Below, piece after piece: positions 25,369 to 39,792 of a stretch of 64,000 bases of DNA (position 1 is its first letter; every line of letters begins with the position of its first letter). The stretch comes from an uncultured Eudoraea sp. (GTDB lineage Bacteria > Bacteroidota > Bacteroidia > Flavobacteriales > Flavobacteriaceae). Under the pieces are notes generated by a model that was given only the letters and a program-made list of their open reading frames with translations, ran no database searches and was not told where the DNA came from. The DNA is taken from positions 1 through 64,000 of the forward strand of contig CAMYJF010000008.1 of the NCBI GenBank assembly GCA_947258555.1, read 5' to 3'. Made by a program: the position numbers and the translations under genes.

Positions 25369-25575
25369 TCCACCTTTGCTACGCCTACGGCGCAGCTACG
25401 GCGGACGCGCCCCCAACCTCTGAGCCAATTTATTCAAGTTCACGGTTGCGTCAAAAGAGAAATAAACATACTGGTACCTTAGCTCATCCTGACGGCCTTA
25501 GGCATCAGGATTGACAAATTAAAGTCTAGCTAATATGTTGGACTTGGTACGTATAAGAATATACTTTGACAAATT
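25369..25575. other. Leader of the tRNA-Phe transcript with a 5' tRNA fragment
   Basis: No gene is convincing here. The stretch holds a CG-rich inverted segment (CGCCTACGGCG near 25383) of a kind common between flavobacterial genes. It also holds a 15-base exact copy of the tRNA-Phe 5' end (25472-25486) running into an imperfect palindrome TCCTGA...TCAGGA (25487-25510), and a 10-base direct repeat TTGACAAATT (25511-25520 and 25566-25575). Confidence 0.7.
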
Positions 25576-25648
<73 letters not shown>

Positions 25649-25676
25649 CGAAACGAAGTGTAGTGGGAGCTACAGT

Positions 25677-25707: not shown

Positions 25708-26008
25708 ATGCCATCAGGCATAGAATCGAAGCCTGTGCTGAAGGACCACCAGGTCCCTTCAGTAATGCCTGGAGGTACCACATCAAGCACAAAACCCGCT
25801 CGAGAGAGTGGGTTTGGTGTTTTTGAGGGGTATAGAAAGCTTGCTTTCTTTAGCCCAGAGAAAACACCAAACGAGCTGCCGAAGGTAGCAGGTTTTGTAC
25901 CTGCCTCCCCCGACAGCTATCAGGAGAAGTTAATCCTGGACTTAAATTCATACCATATTGCCTAAACTTATCTCGAAACCTGTAGGGACAAAATACTATC
26001 TTGTATTG
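25708..26008. repeat. Hairpin array with a 3' tRNA-Phe fragment, non-coding
   Basis: No real gene is seen here; reading frames that cross it start inside the tRNA. In order it holds ATGCC/GGCAT (25708-25721), a 10-bp stem CTGAAGGACC with one bulge (25738-25762), and a 14-base exact copy of the tRNA 3' end, CCTGGAGGTACCAC (25768-25781). Next come AAACCCGCTC/GAGTGGGTTT (25792-25815, terminator-like), an 11-bp inverted repeat TTTGGTGTTTT/AAAACACCAAA (25813-25823 with 25861-25871) enclosing AGAAAGC/GCTTTCT, and then GCTGCC/GGTAGC and GCAGGT/ACCTGC. This looks like the decayed 3' part and terminator of a second tRNA-Phe copy plus other palindromes. Confidence 0.75.
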
Positions 26009-26050
26009 CATATAACGAGTTGGCCTTCATTATGACAAACCATCTAACCA

Positions 26051-26743
26051 ATGATTAAATTCTTTCGAAAAATTAGATACGACCTTATGGAAAAAAATAA
26101 AACAGGAAAATATTTGAAATATTCCGTTGGTGAAATTTTACTTCTTGTTATCGGAATTTTAATTGCCCTTCAAATTAACAATTGGAATGACAATAGACTG
26201 TTGGTTGAGCTTCAAAAAGACTTCATTCTAAACATTAAAGAAGACTTAAAGATGGACAGGGAAAATCTCCAAAATATCATCTCGATACAAAAAGAAAAAT
26301 ATGATTACACTCAAAGACTTCTGAATGAGATGCCAAATATAAATCAAGAAAACAAAAAGCAATTAGATTCATTAATGAATTCAATCCTATATGAAAATCC
26401 GACTTTTTTTCCAGTTATTGGTTCTTATCAATCAGCCTTATCAAGTGGAAAATTTGCTCGATTTAAAGGAAATACCGTCACATCAGATATAGCAAGTTTA
26501 TATGAGAATTATTATTCTCGTTTGGTCTATGTTGGTGAAGCTTTGGATGATCGTTTTTTTAAGATGGGTGAAAAATATAAATTTGAAAGAAGAACAAAAC
26601 AGTTTAGGGAAATGAATGAAATTGAAAATTCAGAATTTCAGGATAATATTCATTGGCTGAGCAGCATTATCGATTTTTATTTAAAACGTAGTAATGAAAC
26701 ACTTACAAAAATTAATGAGGTTTTAGTTCTTCAATTACCGTAA
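26051..26743 (+). CDS. DUF6090 family membrane-anchored protein
   Basis: The 230-residue protein opens with the DUF6090 pattern: a basic N-terminus (M-I-K-F-F-R-K-I-R) and K-Y-S-V-G-E-I-L-L-L-V-I-G-I-L-I-A-L-Q-I near 25-44, which is the only membrane segment. N-N-W-N follows, and then a long charged helical domain with coiled-coil character. Function is unknown; such genes are common, often in several copies, in Flavobacteriia. The gene is clearly AT-richer than its neighbours and uses AAA, GAA and ATT-type codons heavily. The same 10-base sequence (CATATAACGA) lies before and after it, and an attC-like palindrome follows the stop, so a cassette origin is suspected. Confidence 0.85.
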   Translation: MIKFFRKIRYDLMEKNKTGKYLKYSVGEILLLVIGILIALQINNWNDNRLLVELQKDFILNIKEDLKMDRENLQNIISIQKEKYDYTQRLLNEMPNINQENKKQLDSLMNSILYENPTFFPVIGSYQSALSSGKFARFKGNTVTSDIASLYENYYSRLVYVGEALDDRFFKMGEKYKFERRTKQFREMNEIENSEFQDNIHWLSSIIDFYLKRSNETLTKINEVLVLQLP

Positions 26744-26760
26744 AGCAACTTATTATTCAA

Positions 26761-26825
26761 CATATAACGAAAGGCTAACAATGTATATAAATCATTAAAA
26801 CGGTTTATATACAAAACCGTTAGCC
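26761..26825. repeat. attC-like palindrome after the DUF6090 gene
   Basis: Outer arms GGCTAAC (26773-26779) and GTTAGCC (26819-26825) pair perfectly. Inner arms TGTATATAAA (26782-26791) and TTTATATACA (26804-26813) also pair perfectly, with unequal spacers (2 and 5 bases) and a 12-base loop. The layout of two short outer boxes, spacers and an inner stem is that of integron attC sites (RYYYAAC ... GTTRRRY), with one mismatch in each box. CATATAACGA at its left edge also occurs at 26009-26018 before the gene. No integrase gene is in the window. Confidence 0.5.
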
Positions 26826-26828
26826 CAT

Positions 26829-28181
26829 TTAAAATTCCCTATACGGAACATCCAGATATTTATTAGCAGCTTCTTCATCAAATCTGGAAGTTTCACTATT
26901 CCAGTGAAGCGTCTGATTAGGGAAATATCCAGCAATAACGCCCAGCAGTATTGTCTCCGTTAACCTGGCTGCATAAGAGAACGGAGCAGTACATTTTCCA
27001 TGACCTAAGCAAGCATCTACAAACTGGTGATAATGTGCTTTGCTCTCTTCTTCGTAATTTCTGACGGGAGCACCTTTTGGTCTTATCGATTCCTCTATTA
27101 TCGAATAATCCAATTCCTGATATTTCCCTTCAATGATGAGTCGGGGTAATTCCATAAAATGAGGAAGAAATAGTCTTCCTTTTTCTCCAACAAACATTGC
27201 CCCTTGATCATGTAATGTTTCTTTGGGATCTGGTAATTCAAGATCTTTTTGAGCAGCAGGGGCTCCTATACCATCATACCATATCCACTGCATTTTCTCT
27301 GTAGTATATTTCGTCCCGGGAAACTCATAGGTGACAACATTGTGTTCCGGAAAACCATAACCATTGGGTTCTCTACATTCATTTTTTATAGTGTAAGGAA
27401 TATCAAGCGCCAAAGCATTGTAAGGGGTATCAAAAATATGGACGCCCATATCCCCCAAAGTACCACAGCCATAATCAACCAGTTTTCTCCAGTTTACAGG
27501 ATGATAGAATCCTTCTTTGTAGTCCCTATCTTTAGCAGTTCCGAGCCATAGATTCCAATCCAGATATTCAGGAACGGGATCCTTTCCTTCCGGTACCGGA
27601 CCATCATAACCCCACACTTTTGGAGACCAAGCAATGACCTTACTCACTTTGCCTATGACACCAGCTTGTATCAATTGTGTCGCTAATTTGTAATCATGAA
27701 AGGAATGCACCTGAATACCCATTTGTGTAACCAGATTTTTCTCTTTTGCCTTTTTATCCATTGCCCTTGCCTCTGATACATAATGTGTGAGAGGTTTTTG
27801 ACAATAAACGGCTTTGTCCTTTTCCATCGCCAGCATAGATGCAGGAGCATGTGTATGATCCGGTGTAGAAACAACTACAGCATCGATAGAAGTATCAAGT
27901 TCGCTAAGCATTATTCTATAATCGGTGTATGTTTTAGCCTTGGGAAAAAGTGCCGAGGCAGCTTTTAAAGCCCTGGAATCAACGTCACATAAAGCTGTCA
28001 CTTCCACAGCACTATGAGAAGCTATCGCCTTTAGATCTTCCATGCCCATCCCGCCGACACCTATATGTGCTGTTCTTAGCTTTTGTGTTTTAAAAGATGT
28101 CAATAATGCTGATGGGCTTAACACTACAGCGGAGGCCAATAAGCCTGAAGTCTTTTTTATAAAATCTCTTCGATTTGACAT
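26829..28181 (-). CDS. Gfo/Idh/MocA family oxidoreductase with Tat signal
   Basis: This NAD(P)-dependent sugar-type dehydrogenase has 450 residues. The N-terminus has a twin-arginine signal (S-N-R-R-D-F-I-K-K), so it should be exported folded with its cofactor. A Rossmann fold starts near 36-45 (H-I-G-V-G-G-M-G) and the E-K-D-K-A-V-Y-C-Q-K-P motif lies near 130-140 (family EKP). A C-terminal oxidoreductase domain follows. It sits four bases after a DUF1080 gene in the same transcript. That pairing is typical of pathways that oxidise sugars to 3-keto forms and then hydrolyse the 3-keto-glycoside. The exact sugar is unknown. Confidence 0.9.
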   Translation of the reverse strand: MSNRRDFIKKTSGLLASAVVLSPSALLTSFKTQKLRTAHIGVGGMGMEDLKAIASHSAVEVTALCDVDSRALKAASALFPKAKTYTDYRIMLSELDTSIDAVVVSTPDHTHAPASMLAMEKDKAVYCQKPLTHYVSEARAMDKKAKEKNLVTQMGIQVHSFHDYKLATQLIQAGVIGKVSKVIAWSPKVWGYDGPVPEGKDPVPEYLDWNLWLGTAKDRDYKEGFYHPVNWRKLVDYGCGTLGDMGVHIFDTPYNALALDIPYTIKNECREPNGYGFPEHNVVTYEFPGTKYTTEKMQWIWYDGIGAPAAQKDLELPDPKETLHDQGAMFVGEKGRLFLPHFMELPRLIIEGKYQELDYSIIEESIRPKGAPVRNYEEESKAHYHQFVDACLGHGKCTAPFSYAARLTETILLGVIAGYFPNQTLHWNSETSRFDEEAANKYLDVPYREF

Positions 28182-28184
28182 CGG

Positions 28185-29510
28185 TTATAATTTTCTGATC
28201 TTAATATTTTTAAACCAAACAGGACTATCATGATCCTGTAATCCTATGAATCCTTTCTTAAACTTTCCATAATCAGGAAAGTCTTTCCATTTGCCATTTG
28301 CTTTTCTCTGATTCCATTCATCTGACCAAGGGATAAAGCTTAATACCTTTTTTCCATTTAAGAAATGGCTTACCAATTCCTCAGTAAATACAATCCGCGA
28401 AGTATTCCATTCTCCGCCTGGATTTAATATTTTCTCATCCACCTGTACAGGATACATGGAATAGTCGGCACCTGTCTTTTGCCAATCTTCAAGTTTTGCA
28501 TTATTCAATCTTTCCCATCCCTCATCATCCAGTAATTGATATTCCGGACTCACCTCCCAAGGTCCATCATAACCTTCTTGCAAATGATAAAATATACCAC
28601 TATTGCCTCCTTCTCCTACTTTCCATTCCAGTGATAATTCGAAGTTGTCAAACTCCTCCTTTGAATAAATAATGTCATTTCCACCTGTCCATTCTTCTTC
28701 GAGTTTTAATGCCGTATCAAAGGTCAACATGCCGTCTTTTACAATCCATTTTGGGGGCATCTCCTTAGAATTGTATGCTCTCCATCCATCCATATTTTTG
28801 CCATTGAATAGATCTATCCACTCATCATCTGACGTAGCTGTCTTCATGGATTGGTCAGCATCATTAATAGCTCTAACTACGATATCTTTCCATCTTACTT
28901 TAATACCACCTCCGTCATGTATTTGTAATGCGATGGCACCTTTTCCCATGCCAATTTTAGCATCCGCCATTGATATCATTTCTGTACCATTAACCCAGGT
29001 TGTAACTTTGTCTCCTACGACTAGGATTCTCATTTCATTCCATTCGCCCATTTTCAATGCTTTATCCTTTTCGGGACTAGGTTTGATCAGCCATCCTCTG
29101 CCATAAGATTCGTAAACCCCACCTGTATGGTTTTCCGGAGGAGCTACTTCTACTTGCCATCCGGTAATTTTGGTTCCCTCCAGTGTAGACCGAAAGAATA
29201 CACCACTATTGCCATTTGCATCTTGTTTAAACTTCAGATTCAATTCGAAGTCGTCATACAATTTTTCCGTAGATAGGTAGCCATATTCTTTCTTGGGTCC
29301 GCTTTCGCAAACGAGTTCTCCATTTTCTACGTACCATTTCTCTTCGCCATGATTGATCCAGCCTTCGAGATTTTCCCCATTGAATATGTCTACGAATCCA
29401 GATTTCTCTTGCGATACCTGGGATGTAGATTTCGTGTTGCAAGACATTTGAGTAACTAAGAGAAGACCCAAGGCAAGCGATATTCTGGTAAGTGAGAGAT
29501 GAATTTCCAA
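28185..29510 (-). CDS. Two-domain DUF1080 (3-keto-disaccharide hydrolase-type) lipoprotein
   Basis: The 441 residues carry a lipoprotein signal (V-T-Q-M-S-C near 20-25) and two successive LamG-like DUF1080 domains. One spans about 37-215, with D-I-F-N-G-E-N-L-E-G-W and N-S-G-V-F-F-R. The other spans about 230-441, with D-L-F-N-G-K-N-M-D-G-W and N-S-G-I-F-Y-H. Members of the family have been shown to hydrolyse 3-keto-glycosides. With the exported Gfo/Idh/MocA enzyme just downstream it would form an envelope-located sugar-degradation pair. No transporter or regulator is adjacent. Confidence 0.88.
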   Translation of the reverse strand: MEIHLSLTRISLALGLLLVTQMSCNTKSTSQVSQEKSGFVDIFNGENLEGWINHGEEKWYVENGELVCESGPKKEYGYLSTEKLYDDFELNLKFKQDANGNSGVFFRSTLEGTKITGWQVEVAPPENHTGGVYESYGRGWLIKPSPEKDKALKMGEWNEMRILVVGDKVTTWVNGTEMISMADAKIGMGKGAIALQIHDGGGIKVRWKDIVVRAINDADQSMKTATSDDEWIDLFNGKNMDGWRAYNSKEMPPKWIVKDGMLTFDTALKLEEEWTGGNDIIYSKEEFDNFELSLEWKVGEGGNSGIFYHLQEGYDGPWEVSPEYQLLDDEGWERLNNAKLEDWQKTGADYSMYPVQVDEKILNPGGEWNTSRIVFTEELVSHFLNGKKVLSFIPWSDEWNQRKANGKWKDFPDYGKFKKGFIGLQDHDSPVWFKNIKIRKL

Positions 29511-30028
29511 AGTATATTAATTTAAAAGTAAGTGCATGATGGAAGTAAATTAGTAAAATTTTGGAGATTGAAATTATCAATAACTAAAAAGTATATGACA
29601 ACGAATTGATTAACGCCAGTAGCTTACAACGCTTATAAGCCAATCGCCAGCCAAGGCTTGCGTTAAATCCCTGTCTTAGTTTCTATTAAATCGCCATAGT
29701 TTGGAATGCGCCTCCAGGGGCCAGCCATAGCCGTGGCCGTTTTAAACCATAATGACTAGTAATCAAAATTTTAGTTATGATTCCATTCATCACCAATAGC
29801 CAAAAGCTATGGGTTTCCTAAATGACAAACCTGCATGCCCCGACAGCATTGCGCTATCGGGCAGGCGGCAGGCAGGTTCCAATAAATCCCTAATATTGTA
29901 TTCTGAGTGATTGAAACTTGAATAATATCACGTATGTAAATGGATCGGCCAATTTGGGTTCATCCTAATTGTTCAACAAACAGGATCAAAAGGGTCTTGA
30001 TATTCATCCCTTTAAAAAAGATGGTTAA
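29511..30028. repeat. 518-base gene-free stretch with palindromes
   Basis: No coding frame is supported. It contains an attC-like inverted pair (GATTAAC at 29608-29614 and GTTAAAT at 29662-29668; TTAACGC/GCGTTAA) around the perfect palindrome GCTTATAAGC (29631-29640). A GGCCA/TGGCC hairpin lies near 29719 and ATAGC/GCTAT at 29796-29810. A compound palindrome at about 29828-29877 (AACCTGC...GCAGGTT enclosing CCCCGA...TCGGG) is of the kind scattered through flavobacterial genomes. The last 100 bases before the phosphatase gene should hold its promoter, but no exact TAnnTTTG box is seen. Confidence 0.65.
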
Positions 30029-38442: not shown

Positions 38443-39792
38443 ATGGAGACCATATTAATTATAGGAAACGGGATTTCAGGGATCACCGCTGCAAGGCATA
38501 TCCGCAAACTTTCCGACAAACGCATCATTGTAATTTCTGGTGAAACAGATCATTTTTTCTCAAGAACAGCTTTGATGTATGTATATATGGGCCATATGCA
38601 ATACGAACATATTAAGCCCTATGAAGATTGGTTTTGGGGAAAAAATCGGATTGAGTTATTGCGTGCTTTTGTGACTAAAGTGAATCCCGAAACAAAGGAA
38701 ATCACCCTGGATAATATCCGTAACTTAAAATATGATAAGCTTGTTATAGCCACTGGTTCGAAACCAAATAAGTTTGGCTGGCCCGGACAGGACCTTCATG
38801 GCGTCCAGGGTTTGTATTCCAAACAAGATCTGGACCTCCTGGAAGTGAATGCGCCAAACAAGGATGTATGCAGACGTGCCGTGATCGTTGGAGGCGGATT
38901 AATAGGTATAGAATTGGCAGAAATGCTCCGGAGTCGGGATATTCCTGTTACCTTCCTCGTACGTGAAAATTCGTTCTGGGATGGAGTTCTACCGGATGGC
39001 GAATCGGCTATGATCAATGAACACATACGCGAGCATCATATAGACCTTAAATTAAAAACCAATTTAGTCGAGATCCTCGATGACGGACACGGAAAAGTAA
39101 AAGCCGTAACCACAGACCAGGGACAGACCATACCCTGTGATATAGTGGGACTGACCCCAGGTGTTACCCCAAATATCGATTTCCTAAAAGACTCAGGGAT
39201 CGAACTGGGCCGGGGCGTAAAAGTCAATCGTTTTCTGGAGACCAATAAAGCCGATATATATGCCATTGGGGATTGTGCTGAACAGCATGAACCCATAGGC
39301 AACCGAAGGCCCATTGAAGCGGTATGGTATACAGGCAGAATGATGGGAGAAGCACTGGCTCAGACCCTATGTAATAACCGCTCAGAATACAAGCCGGGGC
39401 ATTGGTTCAATTCAGCTAAATTCCTGGACATAGAATACCAAACCTATGGCTGGGTATTTAGTACCCATGGCATGAAAGACTACGAAGCTCAGTTTCATTG
39501 GAGACATCCCCGTGAAAAAATATGCATTACAGTCTCCTACGATAAAAATGATGGGAAATTCCTGGGCATAAACACGTTTGGGATCCGCTTGCGCCATGAA
39601 GTTTTTGATCGATGGCTCACAGCAGAAACTCATGTTCATGATGTTATGAAACACTTGGCCGATGCCAATTTTGATCCTGAATTCTATGCGCATTATGAAG
39701 CCGATATTATGGCAGCATATAACGATCACGCGGGCATAGCATTGAAAGCGCAGAAAGCCAACACAAATTCCATTTTTCAACACCAATCCTAG
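38443..39792 (+). CDS. FAD/NAD(P)-dependent pyridine nucleotide-disulfide-type oxidoreductase
   Basis: The 449-residue flavoprotein has an N-terminal FAD Rossmann motif I-I-G-N-G-I-S-G-I-T-A-A near 5-16, a second NAD(P) Rossmann motif V-I-V-G-G-G-L-I-G-I-E near 147-157 and the FAD-closing D-I-Y-A-I-G-D-C-A near 269-277. No redox-active C-x4-C disulfide is seen, so it resembles NADH:rubredoxin or ferredoxin reductases. It ends three bases before a membrane 4Fe-4S protein gene, which suggests the two form an electron pathway from NAD(P)H to a membrane acceptor. A TATCTTTA box lies 31 bases before the ATG. Confidence 0.87.
   Translation: METILIIGNGISGITAARHIRKLSDKRIIVISGETDHFFSRTALMYVYMGHMQYEHIKPYEDWFWGKNRIELLRAFVTKVNPETKEITLDNIRNLKYDKLVIATGSKPNKFGWPGQDLHGVQGLYSKQDLDLLEVNAPNKDVCRRAVIVGGGLIGIELAEMLRSRDIPVTFLVRENSFWDGVLPDGESAMINEHIREHHIDLKLKTNLVEILDDGHGKVKAVTTDQGQTIPCDIVGLTPGVTPNIDFLKDSGIELGRGVKVNRFLETNKADIYAIGDCAEQHEPIGNRRPIEAVWYTGRMMGEALAQTLCNNRSEYKPGHWFNSAKFLDIEYQTYGWVFSTHGMKDYEAQFHWRHPREKICITVSYDKNDGKFLGINTFGIRLRHEVFDRWLTAETHVHDVMKHLADANFDPEFYAHYEADIMAAYNDHAGIALKAQKANTNSIFQHQS

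Follow-up and report, generated by a model that had tools for sequence, protein, structure and literature searches.

A DUF6090 gene cassette in an uncultured Eudoraea genome: a probable relic of an integron-like system of Bacteroidota

The stretch of DNA analysed here, referred to as the window, comprises 64,000 nucleotides (G000:C8:1-64000) of an uncultured Eudoraea sp. genome of 2.73 Mb that is 95% complete and assembled in 104 contigs. The locus under study carries a gene whose product matches the DUF6090 profile with 89.9 bits (gathering score 23.5, E 2.2e-25). It lies within a unit of 800 bp with a GC content of 28.7%, compared to 42.8% for the whole window, and an equally low value is reached in 1 of 632 sliding 800-bp windows. 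A palindrome, GGCTAAC...GTTAGCC, is found at positions 26773-26825, 29 bases past the DUF6090 stop codon, with the inner arms TGTATATAAA and TTTATATACA and spacers of AA and AAACC. The 10-base repeat CATATAACGA occurs three times in the window (26009-26018, 26761-26770 and at 39716), whereas 0.13 copies are expected from shuffled sequences. Nine exact copies exist in the genome, and by inspection the only ones that look intergenic are the two at the locus and one at G000:C6:3284. An Rfam scan of the locus found nothing but tRNA above the gathering score, and a search of plasmid DNA with the window as query gave no match. The features are listed in Table 1.

Table 1 Features of the DUF6090 cassette locus and its surroundings, in window coordinates.
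Feature	Position	Strand	Basis or remark
Decayed integrase gene, 3' end	25949..26008	+	Upstream of attI; 60 bp aligned to the integrase gene end of sister genome G409
attI-like core, CATATAACGA followed by G	26009..26019	+	Insertion point between G26019 and T26020
Mobile gene cassette, TTGGCCTTC ... ACCG, 800 bp	26020..26819	+	End pairing and homology breaks
DUF6090 gene, 230 aa, function unknown, hydrophobic N-terminal stretch	26051..26743	+	PF19578
Second CATATAACGA, inside cassette 3' end	26761..26770	+	Similar letters in related cassettes
attC-like site, short-loop form	26772..26826	+	Covariance model R1, 48.2 bits
R''-type box GGCTAAC	26773..26779	+	Sequence
R'-type box G/TTAGCC	26819..26825	+	Crossover expected after G26819; homology to G396:C26 begins at 26819
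Possible decayed second attC-like site	29614..29770	+	Behind the Gfo/Idh-DUF1080 block; weak, not proven

The original prediction described an AT-rich gene, framed by a 10-base repeat and followed by a palindrome of attC architecture with inner arms and unequal spacers. All three descriptions held, the second with a correction: the two CATATAACGA copies at the locus differ in origin, the first being the attI core and the second part of the cassette 3' end. DUF6090 cassettes of other genomes carry letters like ATAACGAAAGGCTAAC where the window has its second CATATAACGA.

In relatives, represented by Flavobacteriaceae-like genomes, a literal search for the palindrome (ATATAACGN{28,58}CGTTAGC) in 120 genomes showed no enrichment, with 11 matches versus 19 in the backward control. 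The exact letters are therefore not shared; the structure is common, and a structural model was used instead. The pattern CATATAACGAGTTG, searched in 296 genomes of the order, matched in eight. Most of these matches look coding by eye; one (locus L127) lies 490 bp behind an IntI-like tyrosine recombinase gene. In the genome designated G318, CATATAACCAGTTG lies 17 bp after the recombinase stop codon, and the genes that come next mostly have a site of ~140 bp behind them. A basic pattern search (YAACA, a stem of 5 bp or more, AAAMM[CG]GTTR) over 194 loci totalling 1.13 Mb gave 35 matches, whereas the reversed sequence gave none; this contrast is not independent evidence, since a few of the same sites had served to define the pattern.

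The covariance model, R1, was built from 20 seed sites, all from genera other than that of the window; the regular expression behind these seeds was itself derived from a few of them. R1 recognizes the palindrome of the window with E values of 2.9e-9 over 147 kb and 5.5e-8 over the genome. Of 120 Flavobacteriaceae genomes, 106 contain sites found with R1; of 198 genomes from across Bacteroidota, 61 do. Deeper scoring of five genomes yielded 110 sites in G308, 39 in G318, seven in G396, six in the window's own genome and none in G409.

An R1 site adjoins the gene at 41 of 80 DUF6090 loci of other genomes (before the gene in 23, after it in 25 and on both sides in seven). Sites located before the gene often end 24 bp ahead of the start codon, and all 117 sites in DUF6090 loci are on the gene strand. 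The original prediction would have been refuted by the absence of further copies of the palindrome from the genome and from the vicinity of DUF6090 genes; the six matches in the own genome and the 41 loci show that this is not the case. The system is not specific to DUF6090: genes of other kinds occupy most cassettes, and DUF6090 proteins are also encoded outside cassettes in the own genome. One such cluster, on contig C47 (G000:C47; L037 7200-12000), consists of genes separated by repeats like GTCAGGTCGAGCGGAGTCGAGACCT.

The organization of the sites was analysed in G308, an assembly of one contig, by running R1 on 155 kb taken from it. Of the 110 sites, 109 are on the minus strand and one on the plus strand, and nearly all belong to two arrays. 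Three of the minus-strand sites have no readable GTT and were dropped from the pairing, folding, ORF and copy analyses (n = 106). In a simple hairpin the adjacent outer arms should match each other, whereas at a cassette junction the counterpart of each arm should lie at the other end of the same cassette. Arms of the same cassette pair over a mean of 9.36 bp, with at least 9 bp in 93 of 103 cassettes; adjacent arms pair over a mean of 4.96 bp (at least 9 bp in 12 of 106), compared to a mean of 4.56 bp after shuffling. The cassettes have a median length of 740 bp between site cores. Their longest ORF runs along the array direction in 87 of 103 cases and opposite to it in six, while 10 have no ORF of at least 40 aa.

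Ninety pairs of G308 cassettes are at least 95% identical over their full length. Seventy-eight of these pairs derive from one cassette present in 13 copies, and the remaining 12 belong to eight further cassette families. One cassette is identical over 1677 of 1677 bp in both arrays, 0.56 Mb apart and with unrelated flanks; further identical pairs measure 704, 741, 765 and 1418 bp. Full-length copies with exact edges and unrelated flanks indicate that cassettes have moved as exact units.

Two observations concern the cassette contents. The 13-copy cassette (L248-L255, ~558 bp) has no ORF longer than 44 aa in the copy examined and no ORF of at least 30 aa on the array strand, and is perhaps a promoter or RNA cassette. 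Other G308 cassette ORFs (L255/L254; G308:C1:2786124 and 2763290) resemble by eye the RelE/ParE-type toxins of toxin-antitoxin pairs, which also occur in known superintegrons.

The same data bear on the alternative that the hairpins which follow the genes are merely ordinary terminators or REP-like repeats and that the DUF6090 gene is immobile. In its favour, the site of the window lies 29 bases past the stop codon and folds stably. However, the arms of a terminator or REP element would pair with the neighbouring arm, whereas here the partner of an arm lies at the opposite end of its cassette; cassettes recur in full length with precise edges; and full pairing is found on the bottom strand in 84 of 106 sites versus one on the top strand. 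For the site family, arm pairing and cassette copies refute this alternative, and as an account of the locus it can be practically dismissed. The arm test alone cannot decide the site of the window: the cassette start GTTGGCCTT pairs with the cassette end AAGGCTAAC over 9 bp, including one G.T, and the adjacent arms also pair, over 7 bp.

The strand asymmetry resides in the 16-nt inner arms, where the full pairing of the bottom strand in G308 includes G.T pairs. Among the 20 seed sites, full pairing is seen in none on the top strand versus 11 on the bottom strand. DNA folding energies favour the bottom strand in 98 of 106 G308 sites, compared to 84 of 200 random fragments. Where the top strand has mismatches, the bottom strand has G.T pairs, a pattern expected from selection for a folded bottom strand. 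Such selection is evident from the sequences, although it rests on computation only. No bulged base was seen in the 16-nt arms of 93 of the 106 sites; no canonical attC was run as a control for this count. It is conceivable that the unequal spacers of 3 and 6 nt stand in for extrahelical bases. The site of the window, taken alone, carries little of the strand signal: it is a short form without top-strand mismatches, with folding energies of -10.2 (top) and -11.0 kcal/mol (bottom).

The original prediction had suggested a search for a tyrosine recombinase gene. Such genes were found heading arrays elsewhere, and no array-type recombinase was detected in the own genome, within the limits of its completeness and contig number, where only Xer-like ones were found. 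In 25 sequences of array-head recombinases the catalytic residues R238, K263, H327, R330, H353 and Y362 are invariant. Thirteen of 30 scanned integrase loci hold an R1 site, which in 12 of the 13 lies downstream on the same strand; in the exception, L169, it lies on the other side and the other strand. An attI-like motif directly follows the integrase stop codon. By eye, over the 30 loci, it reads ATATAAC-N-[AC]-GTTR in the clade that shares the window motif, and an ATATAAC-type site with GTT behind the stop codon was noted in L153, L156, L163, L168, L170, L171, L173 and L176. Other integrase clades have other motifs at this place.

Across the 120 genomes, the integrase is present in 70 of 79 with at least 10 sites and missing from 12 of 14 without sites (Fisher p 6e-9 for integrase presence at 10 or more versus fewer sites, kinship ignored). 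The threshold, a best E below 1e-70, was set after a gap in the scores was seen. The integrase is lacking in nine genomes that have 10 or more sites. Two of these, G350 and G362, are single-contig assemblies; with 22 scored sites in G350 and at least 27 in G362, they may have lost the integrase or use another recombinase.

Two mobile elements carry the sites as well. A plasmid of Chryseobacterium sp. SNU WT5 (NZ_CP041688.1, 8980-17680; L276) encodes an array-type integrase together with four same-strand sites, located among Crp/Fnr, RidA and GLPGLI genes; the system can thus travel. The lytic Polaribacter phage P12002L (L288) holds eight R1 sites at E < 0.01, several of them near DNA methyltransferase genes.

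The array integrases have a fold like that of XerA and IntI. Between the halves that match IntI, 30-31 residues are found in 31 of 31 array integrases, compared to 71-73 in five of five IntI and 34-38 in Xer proteins, and the pairwise alignment to the IntI structure 2a3v breaks at the IntI-specific (I2) domain. The short stretch and the alignment break indicate that this domain is absent from the array integrases, and the predicted model has no helix where it would be. Most array integrases have an additional N-terminal domain of ~75-100 aa that is absent from IntI and from some shorter array integrases. In G318 this domain (residues 1-76 of L193:1007-2212) is predicted to be beta-beta-alpha-beta-beta-alpha-beta (pLDDT ~92), and it has no Pfam match. 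No protein in 60 genomes exceeded the cut-off of the integron integrase profile TIGR02249; the G236 integrase reaches 214 bits, versus a cut-off of 265. Taken alone, this profile matches Xer proteins everywhere, including in all 14 control genomes.

A tree was computed for 46 proteins, after the removal of five truncated Xer rows and without L144 and L162, in which no ORF was found. The array integrases form one group in it (91/92), distinct from the Xer proteins of the same genomes. A split with 94/86 support places them with IntI, away from XerA and Xer; the rooting is unsettled, and their position nearest to IntI is moderately supported. The best PDB matches in sequence and fold are XerA-type archaeal recombinases (5hxy, 4a8e), which share the common core without the IntI insertion, and one array integrase scores just above the cut-off of the XerA-type family NF040815 (NCBIfam). 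Unlike XerA, the array integrases group with IntI in the tree and adjoin cassette arrays.

Two further alternatives can be weighed on this evidence. The first is a standard integron, having an IntI with I2 and canonical attC sites, whose integrase is merely missing or was not found. The architecture and the G/TT junction are the same, and P12002L_attC2, a site of a Polaribacter phage, was recombined by the class 1 integrase IntI1 (PMC9892861), although its identity with any R1 site is unchecked. Against it stand the 30-31 residues in all 31 array integrases versus 71-73 in all five IntI, the 0 of 60 genomes over the TIGR02249 cut-off and the 93 of 106 sites without a bulged arm base, which together leave this alternative very little room. 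The second holds that the units are pdif modules, mobilized by the host's XerC/XerD through dif-like sites, or are mobilized by single-strand transposases of the IS200/IS605 type. The units do contain single genes, and hairpin ends also occur in single-strand transposition. However, the sites are one-direction hairpins of ~130 nt, whereas dif-like sites are short, and a dedicated recombinase clade, apart from the own Xer proteins, heads the arrays and tracks the number of sites. Although this clade tracks the arrays, sequence does not exclude an involvement of Xer. We consider this alternative very unlikely.

The reading we prefer for the window itself, a relic of an integron-like system, rests on comparison with sister genomes. 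G409 encodes one array-type integrase, whose gene end (...NFKG*) runs into CATATAACGA/GTTG. The 60 bp that precede the first CATATAACGA of the window align to the 3' end of this gene plus attI with a score of 45 and 41 identities, compared to 35.5 for the best of 2000 shuffles. G000:C74, G396:C161 and G396:C154 likewise match the integrase gene end, and C6 does not. The homologous DUF6090 cassettes on G396:C161, G396:C20 and G000:C74 have as their first base the one that corresponds to 26019, and similarity to G396:C26 sets in again precisely at 26819, so that the cassette boundaries coincide with the breaks in homology to the sister genomes. One G318 site ends in AAAACCGTTGTGCTTCATTATGACCAACCATTAACC-ATG and the window has CGAGTTGGCCTTCATTATGACAAACCATCTAACCA-ATG, a likeness by which the region upstream of the gene looks like a fusion of an attI-like left half with the right half of a cassette site. 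A clean empty site was not found, as the sister genomes are rearranged at the locus and cannot be used for this comparison. Taken together, the window very likely (probability of about 0.9) holds an integrase stub, attI, one DUF6090 cassette and attC left over from an integron-like system, recombination being inferred and not shown.

Two neighbouring regions are recorded separately. Directly behind attC lies a 2.8-kb block (26819-29613) with genes for a Gfo/Idh oxidoreductase and a DUF1080-like protein, both named by eye. G396 has the same block with a pfkB-like gene on one side and an 88-aa gene on the other; the corresponding place in the own genome (C29) lacks it. On the left the block begins at precisely the base where crossover is expected, and its homology to G396 ends at 29613. 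By eye, the adjoining positions 29614-29770 resemble degenerate attC-like sites of the genus, of which only three complete examples were available; neither R1 nor the arm scan detected them, and they remain below the significance of the model. Upstream of the cassette, the tRNA-Phe gene has its 5' end repeated upstream and its 3' end (CCTGGAGGTACCAC) repeated downstream (25471-25484, 25576-25649 and 25768-25783), as would be seen after a past integration at a tRNA gene. The upstream copy is kept in G409 and absent from G396.

The system resembles the sedentary chromosomal integrons of the Vibrio type (superintegrons) in having a one-direction array of one-gene cassettes behind a tyrosine recombinase with attI behind it, in the G/TT junction, in the better fold of the bottom strand and in repeated cassettes that include ORF-poor ones. 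It differs from them in that the Bacteroidota integrase has no I2, stays below the TIGR02249 cut-off and mostly has an extra ~100 aa at the N-terminus; in that the sites lack single-base bulges and instead have A.C mismatches on the top and G.T pairs on the bottom strand; and in that integrase and array point in the same way. The window and the C6 and C74 loci are like CALINs (attC clusters lacking an integrase) in that cassettes and attC occur without an integrase, but the attC is of the Bacteroidota type, and attI and an integrase stub remain at the window and C74.

Among published surveys, IntegronFinder 2.0 reported one complete integron in Bacteroidetes, in Salinibacter ruber, and named the extra domain as the trait that distinguishes IntI (PMC9024848), and a review counts Bacteroidota among the integron-bearing phyla (PMC8618304). 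Smyshlyaev et al. found the IntI insertion to be not fully conserved in an integron-like subgroup, yet essential (PMC8138268). Escudero et al. (2016) described I2 and the extrahelical bases as having co-evolved and called their origin a paradox (PMC4792948). In a phage study, IntI1 was assayed on six attC sites from three phages; one of the two P12002L sites tested was used, on the bottom strand only and without top-strand recombinants (PMC9892861). Our search of the open-access literature, which leaves out preprints and most subscription journals, found nothing on chromosomal arrays of Flavobacteriaceae or on integron integrases without I2.

The complete form of the system consists of a tyrosine recombinase gene, an attI-like site directly behind it (ATATAAC-N-A/C-G/TTR in one clade) and a one-direction array of one-gene cassettes, with an attC-like site closing each cassette. 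In the mechanism we propose, the hairpin site would be present on a free cassette, its bottom strand would fold, and the integrase would join this folded strand, between G and TT, either to attI in double-stranded form or to a further attC; an inserted cassette could later be cut out or moved again. At the window, the integrase gene would have been lost save ~60 bp, leaving attI, one DUF6090 cassette and attC.

The anatomy, the cassette boundaries, the copying of whole cassettes between arrays and the association with the recombinase are established by the sequences. That the array recombinase performs the reaction, with a single folded strand as its substrate, is inferred, no recombination experiment having been done. 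It is likewise an inference that the strand is chosen through the G.T/A.C asymmetry and the 3/6-nt spacers and not through the I2 of IntI and extrahelical bases. We regard the DUF6090 unit as, with high confidence, an integron-like mobile cassette, and an integrase without I2 as the probable, still untested, driver of such cassettes. The integron-like part of the original prediction is thereby supported, with two qualifications: the lack of DUF6090 specificity noted above and the departure from a standard integron, since the integrase lacks the IntI domain. Integrons as now defined have criteria that remain unmet here, on the integrase domain and on the extrahelical bases. The window is best described as the relic of a widespread integron variant missed by standard IntI criteria.

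A bolder reading, on which the evidence leaves us undecided, is that Bacteroidota harbour a second great integron lineage without I2 or extrahelical bases, in which G.T pairs would mark the strand. It might represent a stage preceding I2 and be a main gene-capture platform of Flavobacteriaceae, and it would have stayed unseen because search criteria require the I2 domain.

Integrons are thought to be nearly absent from Bacteroidetes. The sites occur in 106 of the 120 Flavobacteriaceae genomes, and extensive traffic of mobile genes has been missed in a group that is dominant in marine and other environments. If an integrase without the extra domain does drive these arrays, the definition of the integron would be too narrow, and the paradox of the joint origin of I2 and attC (PMC4792948) would become testable with living examples. 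Should the bolder reading prove true, the chicken-and-egg problem of a folded attC and the domain that reads it would be resolved.
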